Assembly (NCBI RefSeq): GCF_000735135.1
Contig: NZ_JPLZ01000006.1
Location: forward strand, 248,001 to 312,000
DNA length: 64,000 nucleotides
Source: Chryseobacterium sp. FH1
GTDB taxonomy: Bacteria > Bacteroidota > Bacteroidia > Flavobacteriales > Weeksellaceae
Reading direction: 5' to 3'
The notes beneath the pieces are model-generated. The model was not told where the DNA came from. It saw nothing but the letters and a program-made list of their open reading frames with translations, and searched no databases. This document shows positions 14,931-40,948 of this stretch, piece by piece; the first letter of the stretch is position 1, and each line of letters starts with the position of its first letter. The position numbers and the translations under genes were made by a program.

Positions 14931-14968
14931 TGCGTCACACTTTAATTTTCCTTTACAAATTAGTTTTG
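14931..14968 (+). promoter_or_regulatory. Phage late promoter 1 (TGCGTCACAC - N20 - TAGTTTTG)
   Basis: TGCGTCACAC at 14931-14940, 20-nt spacer, TAGTTTTG at 14961-14968, then 16 nt to the start codon of the CotH-like gene. It is one of five such sites with identical spacing. The downstream box is a perfect TAnnTTTG; the upstream block replaces the usual TTG. Confidence 0.7.
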
Positions 14969-14984
14969 CTGGAAACTAATATCG

Positions 14985-17324
14985 ATGTCAAGTACTACTG
15001 ATAAAATCAATCAATTAATTCCGGATAACAACAAAGGACTCGTCAAACCCGTGGATTTGAGGAAGAGTTTTGCTTTGATTGATAACAGAATTGCCATGTT
15101 TGAAAATGGCACAAAAGGTATTCTGAAAATTGCAGATGCCAAACCTGATGCGGATGCTATTGGAATTTATAACCTGCCAGATTTCGGGGAATATGTTAAT
15201 TTGATTCCTATTGTTCCAATTGGCGAGGACTCGCCATCAGAATTACCAATTACCACCACTGACGGATATTATAACGCCGTCTATTTTGATGGCGAAACTT
15301 TTTTTCAAATAAAGTCTACGGTTGCCAGTTTATCAGAACTCAAAGATTGGAACGAAGATTCTGGAAGTTTCCCTATGACTAGGGTTTTTGAAGAGAATAT
15401 CTACAGGGTCAAGCTAGGTGAATCTGTCACCATTCAAGACATCCCTGGGCAGTCCGAAAAATGGGAAATCATAGGCATTGACGGTGTGAAAGTTGAAAAT
15501 GAAGAATTTTTGAAAGCCTGGGTTGACAAGGATGGTCTACTTCTCTTTGGGATAAGAAATGACGGTTCATTATATTCTGCAACCTTCGATTTTGAAAAGA
15601 ACAAAGTACTCACGGAAATTGCATACGATGATGAAAACAGGTTAGAATATACACGAGATTCTGAGGGGAAACTAGTTAAATCTGTAGAAGCTGACGGTAC
15701 CAATTATTTACCTATAGCACGGATAGATAACCTTGAGTTAGGCGGAATATTCCTAAAGGAAAAAGCCTTGGAAGATCTGGGAAAATCTTTGAAGACCGCA
15801 GGATTTGGCGGAGGTAAAGGTGATCAGACCGATAATACCTATATACAGCTTCCTATTCCAAAGACTATCGCATTTGTCAACTTCGAAATCAATCCTGACG
15901 AGTTACCTACCTTCAAAGGGTTCGACATTGATACTACTATGCAGTACTGGGACAAAGAAGGCAATTTCTATCAAAAAGATATAGTTCTTTCGGTTCAAGG
16001 TACATCATCAGCCGGACACTTGCGCAAGAACTTCACAATCGATTATAAAGATGCTACTATCCGTTATGAGAATTGGGCTGAACGTGATTCATACTATCTG
16101 AAATCGTTCTATACGGACGCTTTCAGAGGTCAATGTGTGATGGCTTACAGATTGTTTAAAGATGTTATCAACACACGTCCTTATAATCAAAGAAAAGCCT
16201 TCTATTCGGACTATCAAGCCCCAAATTACTGGAACGCAAAAGGCGCTATCCAGACAGATATGTCAAGCGGTGCCAATTATGTTGCAGACGGTTTTCCGGT
16301 CGCGATTCATTGCAATGGAGAATTTTATGGGGTCTACACAATCGTTCAAAAAAAGCACCGTGATAATTTCGATATGAAAAAGGGCACGGCAAAACACGTT
16401 TGGCTGGATGGTATGTTGGCCTATGATTTCTTCAACGGAAATATTATCTGGACGGATTTCGAAGTCCGTAATCCAGGAATAGACTTCGACATCAACGGGC
16501 TACCATACAATGGAGATTTCCCCACGGAAATTCCAGCTTCACCAACAAAGAATTATATCATCGCACTGAGTAATTACGTCAATCAGATAGATGCTCTCAC
16601 CACGACCGCGAGAAAGGCAAAATTTCTGGAATACTTTGATCTCAATGGAATAATGGATTATTTCCTTTTTTCAAACTTGGTAGTAAACTTTGACGGCTTT
16701 GCCAAAAACTGGCAATTCTACACTAAGGATGGTGTTAAATGGTCCATAGCACTTCACGACCTTGATAACATCTTCGGTCAATTCTGGAAAGGCAATATTA
16801 TTTTAGTGGACGAAATCCCGACAAAGATATACGGGTTAGGCGCAAAAGATCCTACCAAATATATGCACTCGCATTTTATGGACGAAACAAAACTGCGTTA
16901 CAAGCAATTAAGAGACTCAGGAATATTTTCCGCTGATTATATTACTGATAAACTCAAAGAATGGTTGGATGGAATCACTTATCCAATGCTTAAAAATGAC
17001 CTTGATAAATGGAAGGATACGCCATCATTTAGAAACTCGAAGACCAATCCTAATTGGGTCGCATACGCAATGGACGAGAGCAATCTAGCAGGTGTTCAAT
17101 CTTGGAATAGCGCGACTAATTACGCTGTCGGGGCAAAGTGTAAGATGGCATTATTGGATGATGTTTACGGATTCAAGGCATTGACCGCGAATACAAATGT
17201 AAATCCGGTAACGGGAAGTTACGAGACCTATCCGCCAGACCTCGGCTTCTTTAACTCCATCGACAGAGTTAGACAAACGATCATACAAAGAATAGCATTG
17301 ATGGATGCAACCTATAATTATTAA
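14985..17324 (+). CDS. Tail protein with CotH-kinase-like domain
   Basis: 779 aa. The N-terminal part (about 1-290, INQLIPDNNKGLVKPVDLRK...) resembles the attachment region of Bacteroidota phage tail fibres. From about 335 it reads like the CotH family: GTSSAGHLRKNFTIDY, CNGEFYGVYTIVQKKHRDNF near 445, NFDGFAKNWQFY, and HDLDNIFG near 591 corresponding to the CotH metal-binding D-x-D. CotH proteins are atypical kinases known for phosphorylating spore-coat proteins. Placed first in the fibre/lysis block, it is probably a virion tail protein. Whether it keeps kinase activity cannot be told from sequence. Confidence 0.75.
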   Translation: MSSTTDKINQLIPDNNKGLVKPVDLRKSFALIDNRIAMFENGTKGILKIADAKPDADAIGIYNLPDFGEYVNLIPIVPIGEDSPSELPITTTDGYYNAVYFDGETFFQIKSTVASLSELKDWNEDSGSFPMTRVFEENIYRVKLGESVTIQDIPGQSEKWEIIGIDGVKVENEEFLKAWVDKDGLLLFGIRNDGSLYSATFDFEKNKVLTEIAYDDENRLEYTRDSEGKLVKSVEADGTNYLPIARIDNLELGGIFLKEKALEDLGKSLKTAGFGGGKGDQTDNTYIQLPIPKTIAFVNFEINPDELPTFKGFDIDTTMQYWDKEGNFYQKDIVLSVQGTSSAGHLRKNFTIDYKDATIRYENWAERDSYYLKSFYTDAFRGQCVMAYRLFKDVINTRPYNQRKAFYSDYQAPNYWNAKGAIQTDMSSGANYVADGFPVAIHCNGEFYGVYTIVQKKHRDNFDMKKGTAKHVWLDGMLAYDFFNGNIIWTDFEVRNPGIDFDINGLPYNGDFPTEIPASPTKNYIIALSNYVNQIDALTTTARKAKFLEYFDLNGIMDYFLFSNLVVNFDGFAKNWQFYTKDGVKWSIALHDLDNIFGQFWKGNIILVDEIPTKIYGLGAKDPTKYMHSHFMDETKLRYKQLRDSGIFSADYITDKLKEWLDGITYPMLKNDLDKWKDTPSFRNSKTNPNWVAYAMDESNLAGVQSWNSATNYAVGAKCKMALLDDVYGFKALTANTNVNPVTGSYETYPPDLGFFNSIDRVRQTIIQRIALMDATYNY

Positions 17325-17335
17325 AAAACTTCACA

Positions 17336-18493
17336 ATGAATAAATGTTTAGTAACAACCTTGCCTGGTGTAGCAGTTTCGGGCAATTTGAAAAAGCTTAA
17401 TGAGATCATATTTAATTTCGTTGAGCGCCCTAACTGGGTCGCTGGTAATTCCAATTATGTAGTTATCAATATCGCTACTATCACCGCTGTGAAGTTTACG
17501 ATTGAAGATGGTTATTTCACTGACAATCTGGGGAATAATACGGGTACCACTTTTACTACTGTTACGGGAAACAACTCCATCATTATGAGAGTTGCCGGAA
17601 GCAATGCAAAGTTGAGATGTGAGAATAAATATTACATCAGTTATTTTGGTCTGCCATTTACGCCATTTTGCACGCCATTCAATGGTATCATTCCGAAGTA
17701 TATTCCAGCGATAGATTCCATAGAATTGAAGTATCTCACCAATCTGCAATACTTCAACGTTGGAATGCACTTTATGATCACCGGAGAGGCAAGCAACATC
17801 AATGGCGAGAGCTTCATCTACTACAACGCTTTCAATCCAAACTACGTCATCGATGTTTCATACAATAATTACAAGCAACCATTGATCGGTAGTGGTTATA
17901 ATATCATCAAAGGTGCAAATCTGAAAGAGTTTACAACTGGTTTCTTTGCTATAGACTTCAACATAAACGATTTCAACGACGATATAGAGATCATCGACTT
18001 TTGGGACGGCGTTTTGAAAGGTGATATAACTAACAAAAGATTTAACAAGATTAGAAGGTTGAATCTTGGTTTTGCCTTAACATTCAAGCCTTTTGAAGTA
18101 ACTGGAGATGTAGATTTCTTGACCTATGACAATCCTAATGACATTATGATAAACTTTAGGAACGCGCCTCAATTGAAAGGCAATGTAGGTGGTTTTGGAA
18201 AGCGTTGCTATCTCTTTATCTCGAATGGGATTTCTGAATTTACCTATACTCAAGGCACTGCAAGAACGCACATCATGGCGCTGAACAATGTAAAGCTTAC
18301 TAGTGGATTAGATAATTATCTGATTGATATGGCATCATTGCCTATTAATCCTGGCGTTGATACCGGAATGTACAACTCGGGTTCTGAGAAGATCATCAGT
18401 CTGATAGGTGAGAGAACATCTGCATCTAACTCGGCTGTTTCCACTCTAGTGAGCAAAGGCTTTGTTGTCATCATCAACGGTTTACCAACATAA
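17336..18493 (+). CDS. Probable tail fibre / receptor-binding protein
   Basis: 385 aa, beta-rich, Asn- and Gly-rich, without signal peptide or Cys clusters. Series of short strands such as NLQYFNVGMHFMITGEAS, and repeated aromatic/Asn turns, suggest a repetitive beta structure (solenoid or fibre). It starts 11 nt after the CotH-like tail gene and precedes the lysis genes. Receptor binding is inferred from position and composition only. Confidence 0.6.
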   Translation: MNKCLVTTLPGVAVSGNLKKLNEIIFNFVERPNWVAGNSNYVVINIATITAVKFTIEDGYFTDNLGNNTGTTFTTVTGNNSIIMRVAGSNAKLRCENKYYISYFGLPFTPFCTPFNGIIPKYIPAIDSIELKYLTNLQYFNVGMHFMITGEASNINGESFIYYNAFNPNYVIDVSYNNYKQPLIGSGYNIIKGANLKEFTTGFFAIDFNINDFNDDIEIIDFWDGVLKGDITNKRFNKIRRLNLGFALTFKPFEVTGDVDFLTYDNPNDIMINFRNAPQLKGNVGGFGKRCYLFISNGISEFTYTQGTARTHIMALNNVKLTSGLDNYLIDMASLPINPGVDTGMYNSGSEKIISLIGERTSASNSAVSTLVSKGFVVIINGLPT

Positions 18494-18503
18494 AAAACAT
18501 ACA

Positions 18504-18659
18504 ATGGAAAAGTACAACGTAATCTATAAGGACACGCAACACATCGGCACTTTCAAAGGTGGAGAAATCAATTTGCCAACTGGTTTTTCAGTAAAGGTTT
18601 TCGACACGATCGAGGAAGCTGAAGAATTTGTGAAGGAAAATCTTAGCACTTCAAAATGA
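18504..18659 (+). CDS. Small phage protein (51 aa)
   Basis: Start at MEKYNVIYKDTQHIGTF chosen over an upstream start inside the previous gene. A beta hairpin followed by an acidic helix (TIEEAEEFVKENL). Ends 1 nt before the TM-coiled-coil gene. Similar small proteins follow tail fibres in Bacteroidota phages. Function unknown. Confidence 0.55.
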   Translation: MEKYNVIYKDTQHIGTFKGGEINLPTGFSVKVFDTIEEAEEFVKENLSTSK

Positions 18660-18660
18660 A

Positions 18661-18972
18661 ATGGATAACAAAATATCAGCATTTGACAAACTCACTGGGA
18701 TCTTCCAAAAAAGACCCATCGCAAGTATGGCGGTGGTTCTTTTCATCTCGCTATATGTGTGCTACAAGGTAGTAACATCTACCTATCAGGAGCAATTGAA
18801 GCAAGCTCGTAAGGATGCTGATGTTTGTGAGGACGAGAATAGAAAATTGATTTATAATCTACTAATAAAAAATAAGATTATCGATGCCAACAGAGAGTTG
18901 GATAAAGTCGCAGACAGTGTGATAAAGCACGATACGCCCGAAGCAGTTGAAATTATTAAAGATCAGAAATAA
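18661..18972 (+). CDS. Inner-membrane coiled-coil protein, possible i-spanin
   Basis: 103 aa. One transmembrane segment at about 20-37 (IASMAVVLFISLYVCYKV), then a charged helical periplasmic-type tail, predicted coiled coil. This is the topology of Rz-like i-spanins. It is followed by a second anchored coiled-coil protein, a muramidase and a lipoprotein, so a lysis function is likely. No family signature visible. Confidence 0.6.
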   Translation: MDNKISAFDKLTGIFQKRPIASMAVVLFISLYVCYKVVTSTYQEQLKQARKDADVCEDENRKLIYNLLIKNKIIDANRELDKVADSVIKHDTPEAVEIIKDQK

Positions 18973-19670
18973 TGAACAAAAAAAACATTTTAATAGGAAT
19001 TATGGTATTTGTGATCGCAGTACTTGCGTTGAATACCGTTGAAGGTTGGTTTACTTTTTCCAAAGAAGAAAAACTTGCCGATGAATCGAAAATTGAGAAA
19101 CCGCAATTGCCTGACCTTGATTTTTACACAAATGCAATTGACAGTACTTTGCATGCCAATTTCGAGACAAACAAAGGGATCGACCCTAAAAACTATATCA
19201 CTCACAAACATTACAGTTATGTGAGCGACACGCTTGCACCTGCTCTCAAAATAAAAATGAACGAGGTGAAAGAATTGACACAGGTCAGGGCAAAATTGGA
19301 AGATAAGGTAAAAGCACAACAGGTAGAGATTGATGCTAATAAAAACAAAGTTTACCACTACAAAACAAAGTTTTTCGAAGCCACAGCAACCGATGCAGAC
19401 AGCTCTTTGAAATATGCCTACAATGCGGAAATCAACCTTTTGAAATATGATAAAAAAGAATCTCTTTTGAAAGGGAAGAAGACTTACATCGATATTTCAA
19501 GTCCTGATAAAAATATGAAGATTAACGGTGTTGAGAATTTCATAAAGGATATTTCTTCACCGCCTACAAAGTTTGGTTTAGGCGTTCAAGCTGGATATGG
19601 CTTGAATTCCGAAATGAAAATATCTCCTTACATCGGCGTTGGAGTGAGTTATAATTTAATTAGATTCTAA
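18972..19670 (+). CDS. Membrane-anchored periplasmic protein, DUF6808-like, lysis region
   Basis: 232 aa. An N-terminal membrane segment at about 6-24 is followed by a linker, a coiled coil at about 90-125 (MNEVKELTQVRAKLEDKVKA) and a C-terminus that ends in alternating strands (GLGVQAGYGLNSEMKISPY...SYNLIRF), like a pair of outer-membrane-barrel strands. Such a layout, one anchor in the inner membrane and a C-terminus suited to the outer membrane, could bridge the two as a spanin. It is also compatible with the DUF6808-type proteins of Bacteroidota phages. Overlaps both neighbours by 1 nt. Confidence 0.6.
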   Translation: MNKKNILIGIMVFVIAVLALNTVEGWFTFSKEEKLADESKIEKPQLPDLDFYTNAIDSTLHANFETNKGIDPKNYITHKHYSYVSDTLAPALKIKMNEVKELTQVRAKLEDKVKAQQVEIDANKNKVYHYKTKFFEATATDADSSLKYAYNAEINLLKYDKKESLLKGKKTYIDISSPDKNMKINGVENFIKDISSPPTKFGLGVQAGYGLNSEMKISPYIGVGVSYNLIRF

Positions 19671-20083
19671 TGGCAAAACATAGCATAGCATACAAAAAAA
19701 CCGCTGGAAACGAGGGCGGTTGGAATCACGTTAAAGGTGATAACGGTGGCGAAACTTATAAAGGAATAGCAAGAAATTATCATCCGAAATGGGAGGGTTG
19801 GAAATTGGTTGACAAGGCAAAACCATTGAAACATAATCAAATCATCAAAAATGATGAGCTTGACAAATTGGTAGTTTCTTTCTACAAAAAAAACTTCTGG
19901 GACGTCATTGGTGGTGACCAAATCGAAGATCAATTAACAGCTGATACTCTTTACGATTTTGGAGTTAATTCCGGTCACGGTCGCTCGATTCAAAACATTC
20001 AAGAAGTTCTTGGATTGCCTAAAACTGGCAAAATCACAAAAGAACTTTTGTCCGCAATTAATAATCCTGAAAAATATTTATAA
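19670..20083 (+). CDS. Endolysin, GH108 N-acetylmuramidase
   Basis: 137 aa. The EGG motif with catalytic Glu15 (AGNEGGWNHVKGDNGGETYKG) is the signature of the GH108 muramidases, which cut peptidoglycan. A PG-binding-like tail follows (ADTLYDFGVNSGHGRSIQNI...). It is shorter than the usual about 170 aa, mainly in the tail. There is no signal peptide, so export needs a holin. Its start overlaps the stop of the upstream spanin-like gene. Confidence 0.88.
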   Translation: MAKHSIAYKKTAGNEGGWNHVKGDNGGETYKGIARNYHPKWEGWKLVDKAKPLKHNQIIKNDELDKLVVSFYKKNFWDVIGGDQIEDQLTADTLYDFGVNSGHGRSIQNIQEVLGLPKTGKITKELLSAINNPEKYL

Positions 20084-20457
20084 TGAAAAATTTAATTTTA
20101 ATTCTCGTCATTTTTTTATCAGTCTTTTCTTGCAAAAGAAATGACGTGAAACCACCTGTTGTTAATGAATCTGTCATTGTTGTAGATTCATTTCCCGTGA
20201 TTGTGAAAGATACAGTTCAAATAGATTTTGGCTATCAAAAAAAATATGATTCATTGCTTGTTTTGAACTTGCGGAAAGATTTTAAAATAGACAGTTTAAC
20301 CGGTTTTAATAATAAAATAGCCAAAGATCTACTGCATCATAAATTGATAATCAAAAACGCTCAGTACTATCTCAATATTACAATCAAAAACCCATCTCAA
20401 GATAAATTTCTGAAAGGATGGATGAGACGAGCTTTAAACCAAGAAACCGTAAAGTAA
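20083..20457 (+). CDS. Lipoprotein, possible o-spanin
   Basis: 124 aa with a lipoprotein signal peptide: hydrophobic residues 4-15 then SVFSCKR, the Cys at about 17 being the acylation site. The mature part is charged, partly helical. A small outer-membrane lipoprotein directly after an endolysin matches the Rz1/o-spanin arrangement. The preceding anchored proteins would be its inner-membrane partners. Alternatively it is an accessory lipoprotein. Confidence 0.6.
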   Translation: MKNLILILVIFLSVFSCKRNDVKPPVVNESVIVVDSFPVIVKDTVQIDFGYQKKYDSLLVLNLRKDFKIDSLTGFNNKIAKDLLHHKLIIKNAQYYLNITIKNPSQDKFLKGWMRRALNQETVK

Positions 20458-21287
20458 TGAACTGCAACGCCAAACAACACAACCTTTGCCGACTAATCCA
20501 AAATTCCTACAAATCGCCTTTGTTGGCTTTTGGCGATCTTGATGTTTCTGCGGATGCTGTGACTTTGAAAATTTACACAGACCAGTTTAGCAGAATTTTG
20601 AAGCAAGAATTTAGTGGTCAAATTGATACTGAAAATAGGTTCTACTTTCCGGAATTTAATTTGCCAAAGTCTGACAACTATTTTTACGAGATCATATGGA
20701 ACCACCTTGGCAGAAATTACCTCGTAGTTTTCGGTAAATACGAAGTCAAGACAAAAGCAAATGATTGCGGTTGTGGAGATAAGTCTGATGTCATTAATAT
20801 TTCCGTCAATGATGGCGATACAGTTTTCAATGTATCATTCTCGCAAACTGTGCTTAATGTTGGCGGTGATGGTGATCCAGGTATTCCAGGTCCGAAAGGT
20901 GAAAAGGGCGATAAAGGTGATCCGTTTTTATATTCAGATTTCACTGCTGAACAATTAGCTTCTTTGAAAGGGGAAAAAGGCGATCGTGGTGATGATGGAA
21001 TTGATGGAATTCAAGGTGAACGGGGCGAAAAAGGTGCTACTATTATTCAAGGTACGACAATGCCTACTGGTGTTATTGCTACGGATGGGGATATGTATAT
21101 CAATGTTTTAACCGGCGATACTTTCATTAATGTGTTAGGAAATTGGAATCAAACGGGAAACATCAAGGGAGTCAAGGGCGATTCTGGGAATAATGGGACA
21201 TCAGTATTGGTTATTTTAGCACCTGATGAAGCGACGGCGAAAGCTTTGAGCATTTTAAATCCTAACAATGTTTATCACTGGATATAA
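20457..21287 (+). CDS. Phage fibre protein with collagen-like repeats
   Basis: 276 aa when started at MNCNAKQHNLCRL, whose ATG overlaps the previous stop; the longer frame from 20418 lies inside it. Two Gly-X-Y blocks are visible, GDPGIPGPKGEKGDKGDP at about 142-159 and a second (GEKGDRGDDGIDG...GERGEKG) at about 173-193. Before them is a DCGCGDKSD Cys-rich turn. Collagen-like repeats are common in tail fibres and give trimeric stalks. It probably forms a tail fibre with the next gene. Confidence 0.8.
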   Translation: MNCNAKQHNLCRLIQNSYKSPLLAFGDLDVSADAVTLKIYTDQFSRILKQEFSGQIDTENRFYFPEFNLPKSDNYFYEIIWNHLGRNYLVVFGKYEVKTKANDCGCGDKSDVINISVNDGDTVFNVSFSQTVLNVGGDGDPGIPGPKGEKGDKGDPFLYSDFTAEQLASLKGEKGDRGDDGIDGIQGERGEKGATIIQGTTMPTGVIATDGDMYINVLTGDTFINVLGNWNQTGNIKGVKGDSGNNGTSVLVILAPDEATAKALSILNPNNVYHWI

Positions 21288-23044: not shown

Positions 23045-23082
23045 TGCGTCACACTTTTTTTTTTGCCGGTAAATCATCTTTG
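23045..23082 (+). promoter_or_regulatory. Phage late promoter 2 (TGCGTCACAC - N20 - CATCTTTG)
   Basis: TGCGTCACAC at 23045-23054, a 20-nt spacer starting with ten T, CATCTTTG at 23075-23082. Only 5 nt separate the box from the ATG of the protease gene, so the transcript may be leaderless. Confidence 0.7.
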
Positions 23083-23087: not shown

Positions 23088-23954
23088 ATGAAAGTCAATC
23101 ATCTTATTTCCGACATTCTGCGAGGTCCCTGGTTGGTAAATCCAGAGGCTGTTTCGCAATATGAGCAACTTGCCAATAACTATTTGACGGGTAAATTCAA
23201 AGGTGCATCAATCAACAGGACAGAAATTCTTGCGGCCGCCAATTCTTATACTGTTGGCTCCGGAAAATCAAGCGAACCTGAAAAAAGAATTGTTAAAATT
23301 CCGATGCGTGGTATTTTGGCCGCTTACGGTGACGATTGTATGCTTGGCGCAGATGATTATCTGCAGATTTTCCGCGCATACAATAACAACGATTCCGTTG
23401 CGGCGGTCATTCTTGATATCGATGGTCCAGGATCATCAGTATCCGCCATCAATATGATGAAGGAATTTGCATCGGAAAAAAAGAAACCTTTCATTGGGTT
23501 GCTCAATACTGCCTACTCCGGTCATTATTGGTCTGGTTGTTTGATTTGTGACCATCTGATGGCCTACGGAAATATATCTTCTGGTTTTGGCTCTATCGGA
23601 GTTCTTTCGATGGTTGTTGACAATAGAAAAGCAATGGAGAAAGAAGGCTACAGTGTGATGATGATCCGCGCACCACAGTCAACGACCAAAGCACAACAAG
23701 GAAAAGATTTCTACGAAGGCAAAGATGAAGAATTCAGAGCATCGTTGGAGGAAGAAATGAGACCGATGGCAGATGCATTTATCAAGGATATCAAAGCTTT
23801 GAGACCAAAGCTTGACCATTCCGCACCAGGAGTTTTCACCGGATCGACTTTCAATGCAAAAGATGCTTTAAAATATGGTTTGATCGATAGCATCGGAGAC
23901 GAAAAAAAAGCAATCGAGCGCGCAAAAATACTAATAGAACTTTACGAAAATTAA
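23088..23954 (+). CDS. Prohead protease, S49/SppA-like
   Basis: 288 aa. The serine-protease core of the S49 family is visible: LDIDGPGSSVSAINMM near 110, AYSGHYWSG near 143 with the likely nucleophile Ser, and SGFGSIGVLSMVVDN near 170. No signal peptide. Located immediately before the capsid gene, it is expected to process capsid or scaffold during assembly. It opens the head transcription unit. Confidence 0.85.
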   Translation: MKVNHLISDILRGPWLVNPEAVSQYEQLANNYLTGKFKGASINRTEILAAANSYTVGSGKSSEPEKRIVKIPMRGILAAYGDDCMLGADDYLQIFRAYNNNDSVAAVILDIDGPGSSVSAINMMKEFASEKKKPFIGLLNTAYSGHYWSGCLICDHLMAYGNISSGFGSIGVLSMVVDNRKAMEKEGYSVMMIRAPQSTTKAQQGKDFYEGKDEEFRASLEEEMRPMADAFIKDIKALRPKLDHSAPGVFTGSTFNAKDALKYGLIDSIGDEKKAIERAKILIELYEN

Positions 23955-27073: not shown

Positions 27074-27104
27074 AATGCGTCACACTTTTTTGGTGTGACG
27101 CATT
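27074..27104. terminator. Hairpin that contains late promoter 3
   Basis: AATGCGTCACAC (27074-27085) and GTGTGACGCATT (27093-27104) are perfect 12-bp arms around TTTTTTG. Followed by TTAATTT, it can end the structural-gene transcript. The left arm is also the TGCGTCACAC promoter block, and the right arm carries its reverse complement. Confidence 0.65.
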
Positions 27105-27113
27105 TTAATTTCG
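27076..27113 (+). promoter_or_regulatory. Phage late promoter 3 (TGCGTCACAC - N20 - TAATTTCG)
   Basis: TGCGTCACAC at 27076-27085, 20-nt spacer, TAATTTCG at 27106-27113 (one mismatch to TAnnTTTG). The ATG of the next gene is 4 nt further, so the transcript may be leaderless. Confidence 0.65.
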
Positions 27114-27117
27114 CACT

Positions 27118-27405
27118 ATGGCGAAGACAATTAGCACTTTGAAAGCAATCAGTATTATGAGACAGTTGTCCCGTGATAAAGTGCCATTCAATATTTCCTT
27201 TTGTTCACTTAATGAAAGTGACGGAATATCAGAAGGTTTGAAGTCGGAAACTAAAGTAATATTGATGCAGGGTTATCGCAGAAATCAATCCGAAAAACAC
27301 GAAGTACTGATCAGTTTTCTCCGCACCGAAAGCAATGAAAGAAGACAATTCTATCTGCCATTACTGATGGAATTTAACGGAATAAAAATCAAAAATGACA
27401 GATAA
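27118..27405 (+). CDS. Small phage protein (95 aa) before portal
   Basis: MAKTISTLKAISIMRQLSRD ... beta-rich, ending NGIKIKNDR. Overlaps the portal-like gene by 11 nt. Conserved position suggests a head or connector accessory protein. Function unknown. Confidence 0.6.
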   Translation: MAKTISTLKAISIMRQLSRDKVPFNISFCSLNESDGISEGLKSETKVILMQGYRRNQSEKHEVLISFLRTESNERRQFYLPLLMEFNGIKIKNDR

Positions 27406-31923: not shown

Positions 31924-32109
31924 ATGAAAATTTCAGAATTACTCAAGGTCCTAAAAAAGGACAGTTGGTATCTGCATAAGAATGGCTCCCGTCATGATCT
32001 ATACAGACACCCAACAAAACCAGGGCAAATTGCTGTTCCAAGACATAGTTCGCAAGAAATTGCAAAAGGTACTGAACAGCAAATTTTGAAAGATGCGGGG
32101 CTTAAATAG
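31924..32109 (+). CDS. hicA: Toxin HicA
   Basis: 61 aa, typical HicA size. Reads MKISELLKVLKKDSWYLHKN, then GSRHDLYRHPTK and VPRHSSQEIAKGTEQQIL. The GS.H core carries the conserved His of this mRNA interferase family (double-stranded-RNA-binding fold). Preceded by an operator-controlled promoter and followed 61 nt later by HicB, forming a toxin-antitoxin pair inside the late operon. Confidence 0.88.
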   Translation: MKISELLKVLKKDSWYLHKNGSRHDLYRHPTKPGQIAVPRHSSQEIAKGTEQQILKDAGLK

Positions 32110-32170
32110 CCCTCCATCTTTTTTTCAAAAAAATCCTTAATAAATTTAACTAGACAAATAAAAACAAAGT

Positions 32171-32575
32171 ATGGATATCATTAAAGTAATTCTAGAAAAA
32201 ACAAACACAGGATACAGTGCTTATGCACCGGATGAGAAAGGTTTAGTTACTGCTGGAAATACTTTTGACGAAATTAAAGAGAACTTTAATGAAGTCATAG
32301 ATTTACAGGCAGAATATCTAGAAGAAACTAATAACAAAGAAGACGCCTCGAGACTGAAAAAAGCAAAATTGGAATTCTATTTAGATGTAGAGCAGTTTTT
32401 CGAACATTTTAGTATGATCAACAAAACAGCATTTGCCCACTACATCGGGATGAATGATAGCCAATTAAGAAAAATTAGCAATAATATTGTTCCGCTATCT
32501 TCAACTAAAGCATTGCAGATTCAAAATGGATTGCATACTTTAGCTAAAGATTTGAGTTCAGTACACTTTGCTTAG
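32171..32575 (+). CDS. hicB: Antitoxin HicB
   Basis: 134 aa. N-terminal partial RNase-H-like domain (TGYSAYAPDEKGLVTAGNT, ITFDEIKENFNEVIDL pattern) that neutralises HicA, and a C-terminal HTH (KTAFAHYIGMNDSQLRKISN) that would bind the two palindromes upstream of hicA. This gives the usual autoregulation. The pair is probably active in the lysogen and may maintain the prophage or exclude other phages. Confidence 0.85.
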   Translation: MDIIKVILEKTNTGYSAYAPDEKGLVTAGNTFDEIKENFNEVIDLQAEYLEETNNKEDASRLKKAKLEFYLDVEQFFEHFSMINKTAFAHYIGMNDSQLRKISNNIVPLSSTKALQIQNGLHTLAKDLSSVHFA

Positions 32576-33119: not shown

Positions 33120-34076
33120 ATGAAAAAACTGTTATTAGTATTCAGCTTCTTGTTTTCTATACTTTTGTTTTCTCAGATTGACTCACTTATAGAATTTAAT
33201 TCAGTAAAAGTTTATGACGATTCATTTATAGGATTAGAAGTGATAGCTCTACCACGAAGTGAAAATGATTTAACAAGAAATTTTCCAATAGAATTATTTT
33301 CAGATGGTAAATTTCAGAATTCAAAAAATTCGGAAGAATATATTCAAAAAATTAGTGGTAAAAAATTCAAGATTTATGATTTAAAGACAACAGAAAAATC
33401 AACAGAATTTTATTTCACTAATAACGAAACTGTATTTCGTTGGAGAAAGTCAAATTTATCATATATGAATTACGAAAGATTTCTATTGTCAAGTCCTTTC
33501 TACGAACGAATCAAAAAAAAAATATCAAACCAAACCTTTGTTTATGCTGATCAAGAATTTCAATTTGATAATAATTCGAATATTGATTCGAGTGCGATTA
33601 AAAAATTTGTAACAAAATCTATCGATTTTTATCCTCCAAACAATAAGGGTTCTAGGACATATTTACCTTTAATAATAGCTTCTGATATAAACAATAAGGA
33701 AACTATCTTTAATGTTTTTGATTTTAGTTTTAATAAATATTACAAAGGTGAATTGTATGATTTAGCTTTGGAATTAAAAGCTTTGAAAGAAAAGAGAAAG
33801 CAAATAATTGAGAAAAAAGAAAATGAAATCAGGTATTCAAGTCTAATTAAGAAATATGGAAAAAGTATTGGTCAAAAAATTTTTGAAGGCGAAATTTGGA
33901 TTGGAATGAATAGGCAGATGTTGCTGGATTCTAAAGGAAAGCCAACACGGATAGGATTAATTACAGAAACAAAATATGGCACATCATCACAATATATTTA
34001 TGAAGATGAATTTTTTAAAACATTAACCTATGTTTATTTGGAAAACGGAAAAGTAAATGCAATCCAGTATAATTGA
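33120..34076 (+). CDS. Secreted protein (318 aa), prophage accessory gene
   Basis: Signal peptide MKKLLLVFSFLFSILLFSQ, then a charged, Lys/Asn-rich body with low GC. Near the C-terminus the stretch GEIWIGMNRQMLLDSKGKPT, followed by YLENGKVNAIQ, resembles SmpA/OmlA- or DUF-type outer-membrane assembly domains. It starts 1 nt after the preceding stop. Base composition and Lys content differ from the structural genes, consistent with a moron acquired from another source. Function unknown. Confidence 0.65.
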   Translation: MKKLLLVFSFLFSILLFSQIDSLIEFNSVKVYDDSFIGLEVIALPRSENDLTRNFPIELFSDGKFQNSKNSEEYIQKISGKKFKIYDLKTTEKSTEFYFTNNETVFRWRKSNLSYMNYERFLLSSPFYERIKKKISNQTFVYADQEFQFDNNSNIDSSAIKKFVTKSIDFYPPNNKGSRTYLPLIIASDINNKETIFNVFDFSFNKYYKGELYDLALELKALKEKRKQIIEKKENEIRYSSLIKKYGKSIGQKIFEGEIWIGMNRQMLLDSKGKPTRIGLITETKYGTSSQYIYEDEFFKTLTYVYLENGKVNAIQYN

Positions 34077-34991: not shown

Positions 34992-35018
34992 TTTATTGGC
35001 TCTAATGCCGATTGTTGT

Positions 35019-35086: not shown

Positions 35087-35119
35087 CGGGATTATTATTT
35101 AACAAAACTAAAAATAACT

Positions 35120-35749
35120 ATGAATAATTTATTTAATAAGCGCTACTCAATTAGGATGGTCTGGCTAATTTTTATCTTGTTGGCACTGGTATTTTGCTGT
35201 GTTTTTTTATCTTTCAAATTTATGGGATGGAAAACCTCTGCATCTTTAGATTATACTGTAAAAATTACTTTATCTATTTTAGCTTTTTTGACATTGATTT
35301 ATCATATGCATAATTTAGAAAATCAGATTAAAACACAGGAAAATAGTAACAAGCAGAATTTGGCAAAATATACATACGATATTTGTGCAGATTTTCGCAA
35401 ACCAGGAATGATGGAAATTAATGAAGACATAAGATGTTTAATTATCAGTCAATCTGATAATTTGAAATCTCAAAATATTCATAAATTTTTAGCCCATATT
35501 GATGATCCTGCAAATAGAAAAGATAGACAAGCTGTTATTATTACACTCAATTATTTTGAAAGTATATCTGCAATGGCCTTAGCTGGAGATTTAGACTTGA
35601 ATATTGTAAAGAGATTATTTGGCAAACTTTTTGGTCGTTATTATTTGAAATTTGCACCTTTCATTTTATCAATCCAACAAGAGAGCGCTAAAAGTTGGTG
35701 TAATTTTGAAAAATTAGCATTAAAATGGATAAATGAGGAAAAGATGTAA
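35120..35749 (+). CDS. Membrane protein, DUF4760-like, lysogen-expressed moron
   Basis: 209 aa; start at MNNLFNKRYSIRMVWLIFIL. Two transmembrane segments, about 13-31 and 42-62, are followed by a cytosolic helical domain with NYFESISAMALAGDLDLNIVK, the pattern of DUF4760-type proteins. It has its own host-type promoter and a terminator before it, as expected of a gene expressed in the lysogen. A superinfection-exclusion or defence role is possible but unproven. Confidence 0.6.
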   Translation: MNNLFNKRYSIRMVWLIFILLALVFCCVFLSFKFMGWKTSASLDYTVKITLSILAFLTLIYHMHNLENQIKTQENSNKQNLAKYTYDICADFRKPGMMEINEDIRCLIISQSDNLKSQNIHKFLAHIDDPANRKDRQAVIITLNYFESISAMALAGDLDLNIVKRLFGKLFGRYYLKFAPFILSIQQESAKSWCNFEKLALKWINEEKM

Positions 35750-35758
35750 TTAATTTGT

Positions 35759-35904
35759 TATATTTGACCGACCTAAATACTTTAAAAACTAAACATTATG
35801 GCAATTTCCAACGAAAGACTAGATTATTACGGTTTCTAATCCGTAAAATCAAAAAGAAAAAAAGTAACAATCAACAAGGCCTCCATTATTTGGAGGTCTT
35901 TTTT
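35759..35904 (+). ncRNA. Short terminated transcript candidate with a 13-aa ORF
   Basis: TATATTTG at 35759-35766 could be a -7 box (no good -33). The region holds ATGGCAATTTCC... encoding MAISNERLDYYGF* near 35798 and ends at a terminator: AAGGCCTCCA (35876-35885), TTATT, TGGAGGTCTT (35891-35900), TTTT. It may be a small RNA, a peptide gene or only the tail of the membrane gene. The longer ORF at 35755-35943 reads into promoter 4 and is not supported. Confidence 0.35.
35876..35904 (+). terminator. Terminator before late promoter 4
   Basis: 10-bp stem AAGGCCTCCA / TGGAGGTCTT with TTATT loop followed by TTTT, 2 nt before the TGCGTCACAC block. It insulates the membrane gene from the next late unit. 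Confidence 0.85.
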
Positions 35905-35905
35905 G

Positions 35906-35943
35906 TGCGTCACACTTTTGGCGAACGCCGTATTTTACTTTAG
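35906..35943 (+). promoter_or_regulatory. Phage late promoter 4 (TGCGTCACAC - N20 - TACTTTAG)
   Basis: TGCGTCACAC at 35906-35915, 20-nt spacer, TACTTTAG at 35936-35943 (one mismatch to TAnnTTTG). The membrane-protein gene starts 15 nt further on. Confidence 0.7.
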
Positions 35944-35958
35944 CAGAAAATAAGACAG

Positions 35959-36336
35959 ATGTCCCAATCACATAAATTTTCTTACTGGTTTCAATTTTTG
36001 ATTCTTATCGTTAATGTTTTCATGTTTACTTTTTTCGGAAGCTTTGGCAGTGCTATCACGGTTCTGCTTTGGCTTCCGTTTTTTGTTTCTGAGATCATCA
36101 TTCTGGAAAAGCAGAGAAGGACGCCACGCGAACAGATTTTCTATCACAAATCTTGCCTTTTTGGATTTCTGGATTTGGGATTTGCATTGTCATTTTTAAC
36201 GCTGTTTGCACTTCAAATCTATCATATCATTGTTCAAACTGATTTTGCGGTCAATCAATATTTTCTTATCACACTTTTCACCTATACATTAATCCGAAAA
36301 ATTTACATCTATAAAAACTATTCCTATGAAAAATAA
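35959..36336 (+). CDS. Phage membrane protein with four segments, holin candidate
   Basis: 125 aa. Hydrophobic segments at about 9-28, 29-46, 66-86 and 92-112, with a basic C-terminus (RKIYIYKNYSYEK). Small polytopic proteins of this kind can be holins, needed for the GH108 endolysin, which has no signal peptide. It opens the packaging/tail late unit from promoter 4. Overlaps the next gene by 11 nt. Confidence 0.55.
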   Translation: MSQSHKFSYWFQFLILIVNVFMFTFFGSFGSAITVLLWLPFFVSEIIILEKQRRTPREQIFYHKSCLFGFLDLGFALSFLTLFALQIYHIIVQTDFAVNQYFLITLFTYTLIRKIYIYKNYSYEK

Positions 36337-37252
36337 GGTTATCAAAGTTCTGAAAGATTCAGAATCCTCTCAAGTTCAGAAATATAATGAACTGCTCGAT
36401 TTTATATCGAGATCTACAAAAAACACCAATCTGGTAAGAACATTCCAGACGGGTTTTAGTCCGTCAAAATATGACCAGCTGGAGCATCAGGTTAAGAAAC
36501 AATTCGAGATCTCGGATCTCGATATCTATAATTTCCAAGATGAAGAAAACAATCAAGTCCAAGAACTTACTGCAACAGGCGCTGACCAAGGAAACGGAGA
36601 CCAAACACAATCCAATCTGGAACCGGAAAACAAACTTCACATCGCCCTTGCCGGAAACGAACCAGCGCAGGAAGGATTAAAAATTCGTGATGAATATGAA
36701 TTTTTGAATGACACCAATTGTCCGGAAGAATTTCACATTCTTGTAGGCCAGAAGATCACGGCGTGGAAAGAATTTGCTAAAGAGCATCAGCAATTGGCAA
36801 TCATCTTAAGTCCGGAAGAAGCTGAGACCGAAGAAGGAAAAGCTATTTTAACGGAATTCGCAGAGCTGTCTGACGAGGAAAAAGAAGAAGTTATCTACCA
36901 GTTAGCAAAATCTACCGTAGAAAATTTCCAGCTGAATGCCGATATCAAAAACGAATTGGATTTCTACAAAGAGCAGGGAAGAGTTCTTGGTAAACATCCA
37001 AAACTGAAATTCCTTTCAATGAAACAGGAAATCTATGAGATGTCAGAAGCTGATTTGATAAATCACAGAAACAACGGACAGAAAAATGTTTCCAAAATCA
37101 AAAAAGAATTGGAAGCAGAACCAGGAAAAGAATCTGCTTTGGAAAGATTGGAAAACTGGGAATACAGAGTGAAAATCGTTCTGGAAAGATTGGCAACAGA
37201 ATTTCCACCAAAGGAACCTTCGAAGCCAGTCAAAACTATTACTAAAAAATAA
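36326..37252 (+). CDS. Coiled-coil phage protein (308 aa), unknown
   Basis: Acidic and helical, with two long heptad-like regions (about 160-200 and 240-290, e.g. SKIKKELEAEPGKESALERL). Central LLLVGQ-like segment reads NCPEEFHILVGQKITAWKEF. Such proteins before terminase genes may be tail- or head-associated scaffolds. No family recognised. Confidence 0.55.
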   Translation: MKNKVIKVLKDSESSQVQKYNELLDFISRSTKNTNLVRTFQTGFSPSKYDQLEHQVKKQFEISDLDIYNFQDEENNQVQELTATGADQGNGDQTQSNLEPENKLHIALAGNEPAQEGLKIRDEYEFLNDTNCPEEFHILVGQKITAWKEFAKEHQQLAIILSPEEAETEEGKAILTEFAELSDEEKEEVIYQLAKSTVENFQLNADIKNELDFYKEQGRVLGKHPKLKFLSMKQEIYEMSEADLINHRNNGQKNVSKIKKELEAEPGKESALERLENWEYRVKIVLERLATEFPPKEPSKPVKTITKK

Positions 37253-37290
37253 GGTTTGGGAAGCCTATTTAAAACCCGAAAAATAATAAA

Positions 37291-37518
37291 ATGGAAGAAT
37301 TAACATTTGGACAAAAAGCCGTTGGATTAAATTTTAATCCATCTGGAGATGACAAGGTTGGACAAGTTAAACAAACATTTGCTACTTTAATTGATAACGT
37401 GGTTAACGAGCATGAATCACCATCAATATTAAAAAATTTGTTTCAAGAGATGGCTGTGAAAAGCCTTGTTTCTGCACAGATGGCTGTTGTTAAGTTTATT
37501 ACTTATTCAGAAAATTAA
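37291..37518 (+). CDS. Probable Acb2/Tad1-type cyclic-nucleotide sponge (anti-CBASS/anti-Thoeris)
   Basis: 75 aa. The start FGQKAVGLNFNPSGDDKVGQ and the end AQMAVVKFITYSEN match the pattern of the Bacteroidota branch of the Acb2/Tad1 hairpin family (DUF7681): FGEKAVGxxFNPS, a helical hairpin, then xAQMWxVKxxTW. Characterised Acb2 and Tad1 proteins bind cyclic oligonucleotides or gcADPR produced by CBASS and Thoeris and block those defences. The usual Trp after AQM is Ala here, and the linker is short. The match is recalled from sequence pattern, not computed. It sits beside terminase genes in a late unit. Confidence 0.6.
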   Translation: MEELTFGQKAVGLNFNPSGDDKVGQVKQTFATLIDNVVNEHESPSILKNLFQEMAVKSLVSAQMAVVKFITYSEN

Positions 37519-37546
37519 AGGGGGTAGAAACTAGTAACCAAAAACT

Positions 37547-37568
37547 AAGGCGGAGCAATCCGCCTTTA
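37547..37568 (+). terminator. Hairpin before small terminase
   Basis: AAGGCGGA (37547-37554), GCAA loop, TCCGCCTT (37559-37566) with only a short T run. Probably a weak terminator or attenuator; the downstream genes lack a separate recognisable promoter. Confidence 0.5.
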
Positions 37569-37586
37569 CCTCTATAATACCATCAG

Positions 37587-37931
37587 ATGAATCAATCCGA
37601 AGATCTTATCCCATTTGTAAAACCATATATCGAACTCTCTCAGGAAGAATTTGAAAAGGTTATGATTTTGGCTGAATCCGGCATTTTCGCTTCGAGAATT
37701 GCTGAGATCCTTCAGAAAGACAAACGTCTTTTTATGCTGGATTGGAAACGCAACGGCACGCCCGTTTTCCTCGCATATTACAAAGGATTGGAGAAAGCAA
37801 AGGCGGATGTCAACGCAAAATTGCTCAAGAAAGCCAGAAAAGGAAATGTGACCGCAGCGCAACAGATGGAAAAGATATGGCAGGAACAAAAACTAAACGA
37901 TATCAAAGAAGAAATATTCAACAGTGAGTGA
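37587..37931 (+). CDS. Terminase small subunit-like protein
   Basis: 114 aa. An HTH-like N-terminal half (ESGIFASRIAEILQKDKRLF) and a helical C-terminus (KGNVTAAQQMEKIWQEQKLN) match the build of small terminases, which bind the packaging site. It lies upstream of the large terminase with one gene in between. Overlaps the next gene by 8 nt. Confidence 0.65.
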   Translation: MNQSEDLIPFVKPYIELSQEEFEKVMILAESGIFASRIAEILQKDKRLFMLDWKRNGTPVFLAYYKGLEKAKADVNAKLLKKARKGNVTAAQQMEKIWQEQKLNDIKEEIFNSE

Positions 37932-38541
37932 TCGATTTGAAAATATAACCATAGAAGACCTTTACGAATTTCTGGAATTTGGCGATATGACCAAAGCACC
38001 ACAGGAACTCGTAGATTATATGTTGATGCTGGAAATGATATGGGGAATGCACAAGAGAATGTTCGATTTTCCAAACAATGAAGCCATCATCACGCATTTG
38101 GTGTTGACCCAAGGTTACAAAAGACCGAAGGCGAGACAGCTTCTCAAAGACGCATTGGAATATTTCTCACGGGAAAACCAACTTTCCAAAGAAACTTGGC
38201 GCTCCATCGTAGCAGAAAAAGGAATGCAGTCTTTTGTTGCCGGAATCAGAATGGCCAGAAACTCCAGAGATATCAAAGATTCGGTTTGGATTCTTTTGGA
38301 ACTCGGAAAATTTCTTGGTTGGGATGTTCCGGATGCAGAAAAACCAGACGAAAATTTCCTGCGACAAATGCAGATCGTAACTGCAGATATCGAAATGTTC
38401 GATTTGCCGAAAGTAGACCGTCGGGAAATCGGAAGATGGATAGACGCACTTCCGGAAGTTTCCGAAAAAATGAAAGCCAAAGCCAAAGCAGAAGTTGACG
38501 GTGTTCCATTCAAATTACTTAAAAATATGGATAATGAATAA
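37924..38541 (+). CDS. Packaging-region helical protein (205 aa)
   Basis: All-helical; contains QGYKRPKARQLLKDALEYFS and RSIVAEKGMQSFVAGIRMAR, then a C-terminal KPDENFLRQMQIVTADIEMF. Conserved position between small and large terminase in Bacteroidota phages suggests a packaging or terminase-accessory role. No motif identified. Confidence 0.55.
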   Translation: MSDRFENITIEDLYEFLEFGDMTKAPQELVDYMLMLEMIWGMHKRMFDFPNNEAIITHLVLTQGYKRPKARQLLKDALEYFSRENQLSKETWRSIVAEKGMQSFVAGIRMARNSRDIKDSVWILLELGKFLGWDVPDAEKPDENFLRQMQIVTADIEMFDLPKVDRREIGRWIDALPEVSEKMKAKAKAEVDGVPFKLLKNMDNE

Positions 38542-38629
38542 ACCAAAAATTCCAGCGGACAGAGAAGAATACACACCTGGTTGCCTGGGCTTTGTAATGA
38601 TTTTTCTTCTGATTATAATATTAATATGA
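38534..38629 (+). CDS. Tiny membrane protein (31 aa) overlapping terminase start
   Basis: Start at 38534 overlaps the previous stop; the stop overlaps the terminase start as ATGA. Reads MNKPKIPADREEYTPGCLGF then a TM-like hydrophobic end (VMIFLLIIILI). Overlaps on both sides and a clean TM segment support it as real. Function unknown; it may be a small holin-related or regulatory peptide. Confidence 0.45.
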   Translation: MNKPKIPADREEYTPGCLGFVMIFLLIIILI

Positions 38630-40356
38630 GTAATCGGATTTTCGAAGATAAAAACGGCAAGTTTGGAGGAAAGGCAGAGTTTGTTTATGCAAATCCGGCG
38701 CATATCTTCTGCGAAGTCGTGGACCCGAAAGATCTCTTCATAGTTGCTGGCCGTGCAACCGGAAAAACCACGACAATATTAGCCAGAAGATCGATCCGAA
38801 TTTCAAAATCAATGCCTGGAGCCTACTTTGCTTTTGTTGGCGATTACTACTCAAATTTACTTTCCAACACAGTACCAACATATATAGATGGTCTTAAAGA
38901 TGCAGGTCTAGAAGAAGGAAAACATTTTGTCCTGAACGAAAGACCGCCTGCGCATTTTGACCAGCCTTACAAATCTCCATTAAGTTACAAGCATACAATA
39001 TCCTGGGCAAATGGTTGTTTTGAGAAATTAGTTTCGATGGATATTGTTTCGTCAGCGGCCGGAGATTCCTTCCAGCATATCAAAGGTGATGAAACAAAAT
39101 ATCTTGATAAAACTAAGATTGATAAGCTTCTGCCTGCGAATCGTGGACAGAGAATGCGCTTCGAGGGCTCCACGTATTACCGTGGGGTAACATTTACCAC
39201 GGATATGCCTAATGTTCTTGCACCAAACGAATACGATTGGATTCTTGATATGGAAGCCAATATGGACACAGAGCAGATTAAGACTGTTATCTATGCCTCA
39301 TTAGTTGTCAATGAGATAAAAATGGCGCTCCGTGATGCTTATTTCAAAAATGACAGGGCGGAATATGAGAAGCAAAAAAAATCTTACTACCGATGGAATG
39401 AAAGATTGTACCGCGCGCGCGTCGGTTCAACTTGTTTTCATGTGATCTCTTCTTTTGCTAATGCGGATATTCTTACTTTGGACTGGTTTCAGGACCAGCT
39501 GAATCTTTCCGGAATAGAAGGCTTCAAGGCTGCAATACTTTCTATGAAACAAGAATTGAAAGCAGGAGAAAAATTCTATCCACAGTTTGAACCAAAACAT
39601 CTTTATGATGATGGTTTAGTTTCTACATTTTATGATTCGACTGGATTTGGTGAAGAAAAAAAACTGAACAGCACAGGACTTAAATATTGCCTCACTAACC
39701 AGCATCTTGAAGGCGGAATGGATTTTGGAAAAATGATGTCTTTAATTATTGGTCAAAAGCAGGGTTGGAGCCAAAGAATTCTTAAGAATTTCCACAGGTT
39801 AGGCAAGGATAATATAGAATTTCTAGCGCAGGATTTTATCGAATTTTTTCAATACCATAAGAGAAAGCACCTGAAGCTTTATCACGACCGATCCGGAAAT
39901 CAAAACCGAAGCTTTGGAAAAGATATGGCAACACTTTTCAAAAAATTGGTAGAGGGTGGCGAAATTAATGGCATTAAACAAGGCTGGAAAGTAGAATTGA
40001 TGTCTGTTGGACAGGGAACTATCTACCAATTTGAAGAATACAATCTCGTAAACCAGATGTTTTCTGAAATCAATCCTGCGTTACCTCGAATTTTAATTGA
40101 TAAATTCCAATGCTTGGAGTTGATTTCATCGATTAGTTTGGCCAAAATTGTTATTGATAAAAATAAACGTGGAGAAACTCAGCTGAATAAAAATAAAACT
40201 TCGGAAAGTATGCCGTTAAAAAGTCTGCCGATGTTCTCAACAAACTACTCTGATGCTTTCAAATATTATTTTTGCCGACCAGAATATATGAAAGAAGCTG
40301 CGAGCCGACTTGGATCTTCCAATTCTTACGCACCAATCATTCATAGTTTGAGTTAA
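38626..40356 (+). CDS. Terminase large subunit
   Basis: 576 aa from the ATG at 38626 (MSNRIFEDKNGKFGGK), preferred over an upstream start because it overlaps the 31-aa ORF by ATGA. The ATPase P-loop is AGRATGKT near residue 43. Later motifs are GSTYYRGVTFTTDMPN near 185, MDFGKMMSLIIGQ near 365 (nuclease-type Asp) and YHDRSGNQNRSFGKDM near 420. Drives DNA packaging into the procapsid. It is followed by a strong terminator. Confidence 0.85.
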   Translation: MSNRIFEDKNGKFGGKAEFVYANPAHIFCEVVDPKDLFIVAGRATGKTTTILARRSIRISKSMPGAYFAFVGDYYSNLLSNTVPTYIDGLKDAGLEEGKHFVLNERPPAHFDQPYKSPLSYKHTISWANGCFEKLVSMDIVSSAAGDSFQHIKGDETKYLDKTKIDKLLPANRGQRMRFEGSTYYRGVTFTTDMPNVLAPNEYDWILDMEANMDTEQIKTVIYASLVVNEIKMALRDAYFKNDRAEYEKQKKSYYRWNERLYRARVGSTCFHVISSFANADILTLDWFQDQLNLSGIEGFKAAILSMKQELKAGEKFYPQFEPKHLYDDGLVSTFYDSTGFGEEKKLNSTGLKYCLTNQHLEGGMDFGKMMSLIIGQKQGWSQRILKNFHRLGKDNIEFLAQDFIEFFQYHKRKHLKLYHDRSGNQNRSFGKDMATLFKKLVEGGEINGIKQGWKVELMSVGQGTIYQFEEYNLVNQMFSEINPALPRILIDKFQCLELISSISLAKIVIDKNKRGETQLNKNKTSESMPLKSLPMFSTNYSDAFKYYFCRPEYMKEAASRLGSSNSYAPIIHSLS

Positions 40357-40407
40357 AAATTAATTTATCTTTGCAATCGATGAACGTCATAAGTCATCAA
40401 AATTATT

Positions 40408-40581
40408 TTATCTAGCGGAGCAGTCGAGTGCTCCGCTATTTTTTTTTGCATAAATCCTCAAAACTTCATTATTATTTTTTTTCGCCAAATCTACGTTCGC
40501 ATTGCAGAGAATTTCGCTTTCATCAATTTGTAATTCGCATTTCCAGCAAACCACTTTCACCACTACATTTTTAAAATCCAT
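40408..40581 (-). CDS. Possible 57-aa minus-strand ORF with CxxC
   Basis: Reads MDFKNVVVKVVCWKCELQID, then ILCNANVDLAKKNNNEV and a C-terminus that runs through the terminase terminator. On the minus strand a TACCTTTG box lies 15 nt upstream of the ATG. Cysteines as CWKC and LC suggest a metal site. Only moderate evidence; it may be a noncoding stretch. Confidence 0.35.
   Translation of the reverse strand: MDFKNVVVKVVCWKCELQIDESEILCNANVDLAKKNNNEVLRIYAKKNSGALDCSAR
40413..40450 (+). terminator. Strong terminator after terminase
   Basis: TAGCGGAGCA (40413-40422) and TGCTCCGCTA (40429-40438) form a 10-bp stem, loop GTCGAG, followed by ten T residues. Lies 57 nt after the terminase stop codon. 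A TATCTTTG box at 40366-40373 might give a short RNA of about 70 nt. Confidence 0.9.
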
Positions 40582-40910
40582 TTTCGCAATTCCAAAGGTA
40601 TCTTTTCAAAATAAAGAAAGGATTTCGCCTTTTTTTATGCCGTAAATATTTCAAAAATGACCAGAAACACATCATAAAACCACCCTACAAAAATTATCAA
40701 AATCGTTAATTATTTGATTGTCAATAGATAAACCCTATCGGTTTTCGAAAATTTTCCGCTTGTTTGACGTTTCTGCCCGCCCCGCTCAAAGGCTGTTTTC
40801 GCGACCGCAGGGGCAAAAAAACGAGGGAAATATGGCGAAAATCCGATGGATAGGCGGTTTTGGAGGTTATTGATAAATGCGATGAGCGGTTGGTGATTGA
40901 GGGCGAAAAC
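40582..40910. other. Noncoding stretch between terminase and tape measure
   Basis: About 330 bp without a convincing gene. The right half (40740-40910) is clearly richer in GC than neighbours, with CCCGCCCCGCTC and CGACCGCAGGGGC blocks. The minus-strand frame 40710-40943 covers it but reads as low-complexity arginine/phenylalanine-rich sequence and runs through promoter 5. It might hold a packaging (cos/pac) site, which would be expected near the terminase genes, but no symmetry supports this. Confidence 0.4.
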
Positions 40911-40948
40911 TGCGTCACAATTTTGCTCGCGCACCTTCACCACCTTGC
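40911..40948 (+). promoter_or_regulatory. Phage late promoter 5 (TGCGTCACAA - N20 - CACCTTGC)
   Basis: TGCGTCACAA at 40911-40920, 20-nt spacer, CACCTTGC at 40941-40948, the most diverged member (A, T, T of the box kept). Located 15 nt upstream of the tape-measure start. Confidence 0.5.

Follow-up and report, generated by a model that had tools for sequence, protein, structure and literature searches.

By what means does a temperate phage of the Bacteroidota switch on its late genes? Members of this major phylum live in the gut, in soil and in water, and their sigma factor is unusual. In the open-access literature searched, we have found no account of late-gene activation in temperate phages of the phylum. 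The question is raised by a stretch of 64,000 nucleotides from Chryseobacterium sp. FH1 (hereafter the window), in which an earlier note had marked five copies of one short word, each in front of a late gene block, and had read them as phage-specific late promoters. The region is that of a temperate phage, with a tyrosine integrase gene (48181-49398) beside a tRNA-Leu gene. Its terminase is 44% identical to that of Flavobacterium phages 6H and laban6-1 and 40% identical to that of Cellulophaga phage Ingeline (all Duneviridae), the late modules are similar to those of the same three phages, and judged by the homologous terminase and the late gene order the window phage is a Duneviridae-like temperate phage. 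The early region encodes a PAPS-reductase-like protein (8950-9786) and a C5 cytosine methylase-like protein (10181-10828), which could possibly serve DNA modification against host defence. A HicA/HicB-like gene pair, recognised by its look, lies within the late region (31924-32575), and in the record of Porphyromonas phage018a (018a below) a pair of this kind is annotated in a comparable position.

Five Words at a Fixed Distance From a Host-Like Box

The word TGCGTCACA(C/A) has been found five times on the plus strand, at 14931, 23045, 27076, 35906 and 40911, each copy preceding a late block. The five putative promoters and two features attached to them are the following:

14931..14968, plus strand: late promoter 1, word TGCGTCACAC (14931-14940), N20, box TAGTTTTG (14961-14968)
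23045..23082, plus strand: late promoter 2, word TGCGTCACAC (23045-23054), N20, box CATCTTTG (23075-23082)
27076..27113, plus strand: late promoter 3, word TGCGTCACAC (27076-27085), N20, box TAATTTCG (27106-27113)
35906..35943, plus strand: late promoter 4, word TGCGTCACAC (35906-35915), N20, box TACTTTAG (35936-35943)
40911..40948, plus strand: late promoter 5, word TGCGTCACAA (40911-40920), N20, weak box CACCTTGC (40941-40948)
27093..27102, minus strand: inverted copy of the word (word match), forming a dyad within the late promoter 3 spacer
35880..35905, plus strand: terminator-like hairpin with a T-run, immediately before the late promoter 4 word, at one of the five window sites

The coordinates given earlier for all five sites are correct; the inverted sixth copy was absent from that list. 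Both strands together hold six matches to TGCGTCACAM against 0.14 expected, and at least six were reached in none of 100 shuffles. When one mismatch is allowed in the 9-mer, 12 copies are found against 8.31 expected, and this swamping of the signal indicates that the exact word matters. At exactly N20 from the word, the match to TAnnTTTG is 6, 5, 5, 5 and 3 out of 6 at sites 1 to 5, while a score of at least 5 occurs at 0.94% of plus-strand positions. Scanned over spacings from 10 to 30, the mean box score has its maximum (4.8) at 20, falls to 3.6 at 19 and stays at or below 3.0 elsewhere, which bears out the N20 distance that had been proposed.

The whole 3.98-Mb genome contains 14 matches to the bare 10-mer, six of them in the window and eight elsewhere, and at the four outside places that were inspected the box scores are 1-3. 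The combined pattern GCGTCACA-N21-YAnnTT has exactly five matches in the 3.98 Mb, namely the five sites, and the same pattern read backwards has none. A word equally frequent in the host genome, named earlier as an observation that would speak against phage-specific promoters, is thereby excluded, and a chance origin of the words has been rejected on the shuffles, the genome-wide uniqueness of word plus box and the spacing peak of the box score.

The distance between word and box becomes meaningful when it is compared with the host promoter. The promoter description in PMC6847099 gives a Bacteroidota primary-sigma consensus of -33 TTTG and -7 TAnnTTTG; in Flavobacterium johnsoniae the -7 element is numbered from T-12 to G-5, the transcript starts 4 or 5 nt past that element, and the -33 motif is weak in any case. 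In this numbering the word spans about -42 to -33 and thus lies over the -33 TTTG element, in whose place TCACAC or TCACAA stands; TTTG at -33 has not been found at the window promoters. The -7 box and its distance are accordingly those of the Bacteroidota primary-sigma promoter as described there, the fifth box being weak, whereas a phage word of 9-10 nt covers the -33 position. The earlier proposal of a late promoter element that replaces the -33 element, keeps the host -7 box and implies a phage factor is thus supported, and the same architecture recurs in related phages.

The Late Blocks and Their First Genes

Late promoter 1 lies 4 nt past the stop codon of a candidate regulator gene and before a CotH gene (14985-17324). 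Late promoter 2 precedes an S49 head protease gene (23088-23954), late promoter 3 a gene of 95 aa (27118-27405) followed by the portal gene, late promoter 4 the gene 35959-36336 and the packaging genes, and late promoter 5 the tape measure gene (40964-45283). The identities suggested earlier for the genes of these blocks have held by profile for CotH, the head protease and the tape measure protein. The portal gene owes its name to annotated relatives, Ingeline and Leef_1 among them, the family of the window protein (phrog_22277) being without function in PHROGs, and gene 35959-36336, taken earlier for a four-TM protein, gave no family match in the profile scan.

A T-run hairpin directly 5' of the word has been seen at 8 of 20 sites in the host-family prophages G186a, G280, G084 and G079, compared with 1.2% of 4000 random places, which would suit the beginning of a new transcription unit. 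At the portal block, the ATG (27118) begins 5 nt after the box; the distance is 4-5 nt in the window (27106-27120) and in four relatives (L041, L043, L045 and L047), and the four host-family prophages keep an equally tight spacing. By the rule of PMC6847099, with transcripts starting 4 or 5 nt after the -7 element, the mRNA from which the portal block's first gene is translated would probably have no leader in the window phage and the four relatives.

The dyad formed by the inverted word (27076-27102) is partly kept at the homologous portal-block sites of L041, L045 and L047 and may represent a second binding site or a means of fine control. Its resemblance to an operator raises the possibility that the words are operators for a repressor that would silence the late promoters in the lysogen, and a site over the -33 element could equally serve repression. 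Against this, the distance from word to box is fixed to the base, which is more than an operator needs, these promoters would seem to retain no -33 element once the word is taken away, and the gene of the candidate protein adjoins the late genes, not the immunity region. We regard repression as highly improbable.

Lineage-Specific Words in One Register

Loci of relatives were fetched by homologues of the candidate regulator encoded at 14373-14927, and complete phages were found by terminase. The presence of a regulator relative in 37 of 38 sequence sets is hence by construction for most of them; 6H, laban, Ingeline, Leef_1, BT-TP2 and 018a were found by terminase and are independent in this respect. 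A first scan for repeated words, swamped by A/T-rich words, was used for leads only.

Each of the four host-family prophages has five copies of TGCGTCACAA at N20, with CGCGTCACAA standing at one site of G186a and at one of G084. In the other phages, late genes are preceded by different words in this register (TGTCACA, TGTCTTAA, TGTCCTTT, TGTAACA and others). Phage laban has TATGTCACAA/CATGTCACAA at five sites with N20, and 6H has CATGTCTTAA at four sites with N19-20, a word shared by L021 and L035 (three sites each, N19-20). Three sites each in the same register have been found for CATATCACAA in L019, CATGATACAC in L038, TATGTCACAG in L020 and CATGTCACAG in L022. In Ingeline, five copies of TGTCCTTTTAA have a box at N17 and keep the register in their first eight bases; a further copy, at 33305, has no box. 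Divergent prophages have words of their own, TAGTGA(T/G)GCA in G013, TGTAACA in G032 and G186b, and TTGGCA in G309 and G311; the evidence is weak for the GTCAG set of G215/G214 and for L032 and L036 (one site each in the sequence examined), and a repeated word looked for in G212 was not found. The Duneviridae phages 6H, laban6-1 and Ingeline thus resemble the window phage in promoter layout, in possessing a regulator relative and in a terminase 40-44% identical, and differ from it in their words (TGTCTTAA, TGTCACAA and TGTCCTTTTAA).

With the register fixed, GTCACA ranks first among 180 letter orders in the Flavobacteriia, with 21 loci having at least two sites, the next order having 13; the 31 loci of this count were hand-picked as non-duplicates. 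One word common to all phages has been rejected, because each phage repeats a single word and the lineages differ in theirs. The check in related prophages that had been suggested has given two answers, the same word at N20 in four prophages and other words in the same register in other phages. On the sequences compared, lineage-specific words in one register are what one would expect of promoters recognised by a trans factor that evolves along with them.

The Candidate Activator

Two phage proteins come into question as this factor:

14373..14927, plus strand: candidate late activator, 184 aa, phrog_21888 (no assigned function), proposed from profile, position and predicted fold
3670..4218, plus strand: LuxR-type protein (GerE domain, phrog_10300, by profile), the less likely factor

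The gene 14373-14927 is the last before the first late promoter. Its product matches the phrog_21888 profile as a whole protein (E 2.9e-28, residues 1-175, profile positions 1-171 of 178), and the predicted fold ends in a helix-turn-helix at about residues 129-165, with Y160 in the second helix. Searches gave no named family, and the Pfam, PHROGs and NCBIfam scans no match to the Mor/C family; MotA and AsiA are absent among the PDB sequence or fold matches, though a relation to them may nonetheless exist. Relatives of the protein occur in the terminase-collected phages 6H, laban, Ingeline and Leef_1. The position as last early gene fails in Ingeline, where a word (22912) stands about 10 kb 5' of the regulator gene.

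As to the surroundings, about 490 nt of A/T-rich DNA (13441-13929), in which TGTAAT/ATTACA-like repeats occur and no ORF of 60 aa is listed, stand just 5' of the two genes preceding the late region. Ingeline (L004, 21703-22494) and Leef_1 (L070, 28136-28999) have a second tyrosine recombinase just 5' of the late region, besides the usual integrase. These recombinases were considered as regulators and rejected, as both match integrase families and regulator relatives are present in both phages.

The earlier note had implied a phage factor and offered either the LuxR-type protein or an unknown early gene; the second suggestion fits better, with 14373-14927 as that gene. That the LuxR-type protein reads the word and activates the late genes is conceivable from its DNA-binding domain (GerE) and its homologues in 6H, laban and Ingeline (profile members) and in Leef_1 (E 4e-23). 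Its gene stands next to the likely repressor, close to where the early region begins, BT-TP2 (L068) and 018a (L069), two complete phages with such promoters, gave no match below E 1 to the profile of the LuxR homologues, and the word, the third site aside, is no palindrome, while LuxR-type proteins usually read palindromes. We consider this assignment very unlikely.

Residue 160 and the Word

Among 41 distinct relatives with a clear word (words assigned by hand, near-copies dropped), residue 160 is the sole alignment column that separates the word classes, being Y or F in 36 of 36 phages with an xACA word and D, N, N, E and N in the five with TGTCTTAA. Left out of the 41 rows were G013, G309, G311, G212, G215 and G214, with words outside both classes, as well as Ingeline, Leef_1 and L138-L140. 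At residue 160, G013 has N with a word other than TGTCTTAA, G215/G214 and G212 have M, and G309 and G311 have Y with TTGGCA; the rule is thus not one-to-one, and G013 breaks it when it is read backwards. L141, which is 57% identical to L021, was chosen by its asparagine, and a TGTCTTAA word with a 6/6 box directly after the gene was read afterwards.

A tree of 24 rows, computed with the C-terminal part left out, requires TGTCTTAA to have arisen twice, each time on a supported branch and together with a change at residue 160; the sign test gives p 0.5, as two events cannot reach significance. As a control, any separating column has been found in 0.28% of 5000 random five-row sets and in 16.7% of 1517 related sets, and a column as clean as residue 160 in none of the 5000 random sets and in 1.25% of the related ones.

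These observations also bear on a non-primary sigma factor, of host or phage, as the reader of both word and box. The word does occupy the place where sigma region 4 binds, and the LuxR-type protein of Ingeline matches weakly a family named sigma factor (phrog_3282, E 2e-4). Yet the box keeps the host primary-sigma consensus as given in PMC6847099, the word is not the same in all phage lineages and goes with residue 160 of a phage protein, and word plus box are absent from the rest of the host genome, so that we hold such a factor to be very unlikely.

Proposed Mechanism and Known Systems

It is likely, in our judgement, that the five blocks are late promoters in which the host primary sigma reads the -7 box and the word replaces the -33 element, to be read by a phage activator, most likely the product of 14373-14927. 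The host polymerase with its primary sigma would use the -7 box, and the C-terminal helix-turn-helix of the phage protein would bind the word, dock the host RNA polymerase and supply the missing -33 contact. With the regulator made just before the late phase, all late blocks would start together. Word binding by the protein, activation and the part of the polymerase touched are what we infer; computation has given the word with its register and uniqueness, the architecture of the relatives with their lineage-specific words, the position, spread and predicted fold of the protein, and the covariation of residue 160.

The most likely mode of action is recruitment of the host RNA polymerase through occupation of the -33 region, and the logic of this is known. 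The MotA box of phage T4 likewise replaces an upstream element and leaves the host -10/-7 region in use. The late activator C of phage Mu, whose middle activator is Mor, resembles the proposed protein as one activator made before the late phase that serves several late promoters; the C site of Mu is a dyad, which the window word is not. As PMC6755090 describes the T4 middle promoters with MotA and AsiA, a phage DNA-binding protein turns the host polymerase to phage promoters there as well, whereas the window differs in phylum and sigma factor, in an unrelated-looking protein and in late instead of middle genes. The open-access literature searched has yielded no description of this promoter class, of its phylum-wide spread or of the regulator family.

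Beyond the Flavobacteriia

The word TGTCCTTTT is repeated 5' of six genes in Leef_1 (Helgolandviridae) and of four in Bacteroides phage BT-TP2; in both it is first among 9-mers in a count of upstream words, where 8-mers such as TTGCCTTT (BT-TP2) and TTTAGATG (Leef_1) score above it. In Porphyromonas phage018a this count did not bring up TGTCCTTTT; it was seen by eye before 20312 and 29091, with TGTCCTTTG before 35791 and AGTCCTTTA before 11300. Box distances in these three phages were counted by eye.

A word-blind count over 65 Bacteroidia-type contigs, which are the surroundings of BT-TP2-like and 018a-like regulators, has placed GTCCTTTA at spacer 19 first among repeated words (15 loci), the best unrelated word at any of 11 spacings reaching 5 loci. 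GTC[CT]TT stands in register at 54 of 55 distinct loci, with at least two sites in 44; the corresponding controls gave 18-26 loci (4-7 with at least two sites) in other registers, 25-31 (10-16) for other GTC orders and 33 (18) on the reverse strand. The in-register GTC[CT]TT indicates that the layout, in which the box follows the first base of GTC by 27 nt, extends over phages whose hosts range from Bacteroides to Flavobacterium. The relation between the regulators themselves is at best remote, hhalign giving for phrog_21888 against those of BT-TP2 and 018a probabilities of 2% and 18%, and of 73% with fuller profiles; their predicted elements come in the same order.

It is conceivable that temperate phages of the Bacteroidota share one old late-transcription system, in which one small regulator of a new family replaces sigma region 4 on the divergent host polymerase and reads a private word that drifts with a few residues of the recognition helix. 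We put this wider reading somewhat below an even chance, given how distant the Bacteroidia regulators are from phrog_21888. The analysis provides a named promoter class with a rule to find it in unannotated prophages, a proposed function for phrog_21888, and natural pairs of regulator and word for studying the evolution of DNA recognition. If the shared system is true, each phage lineage would have its own password for its late genes.
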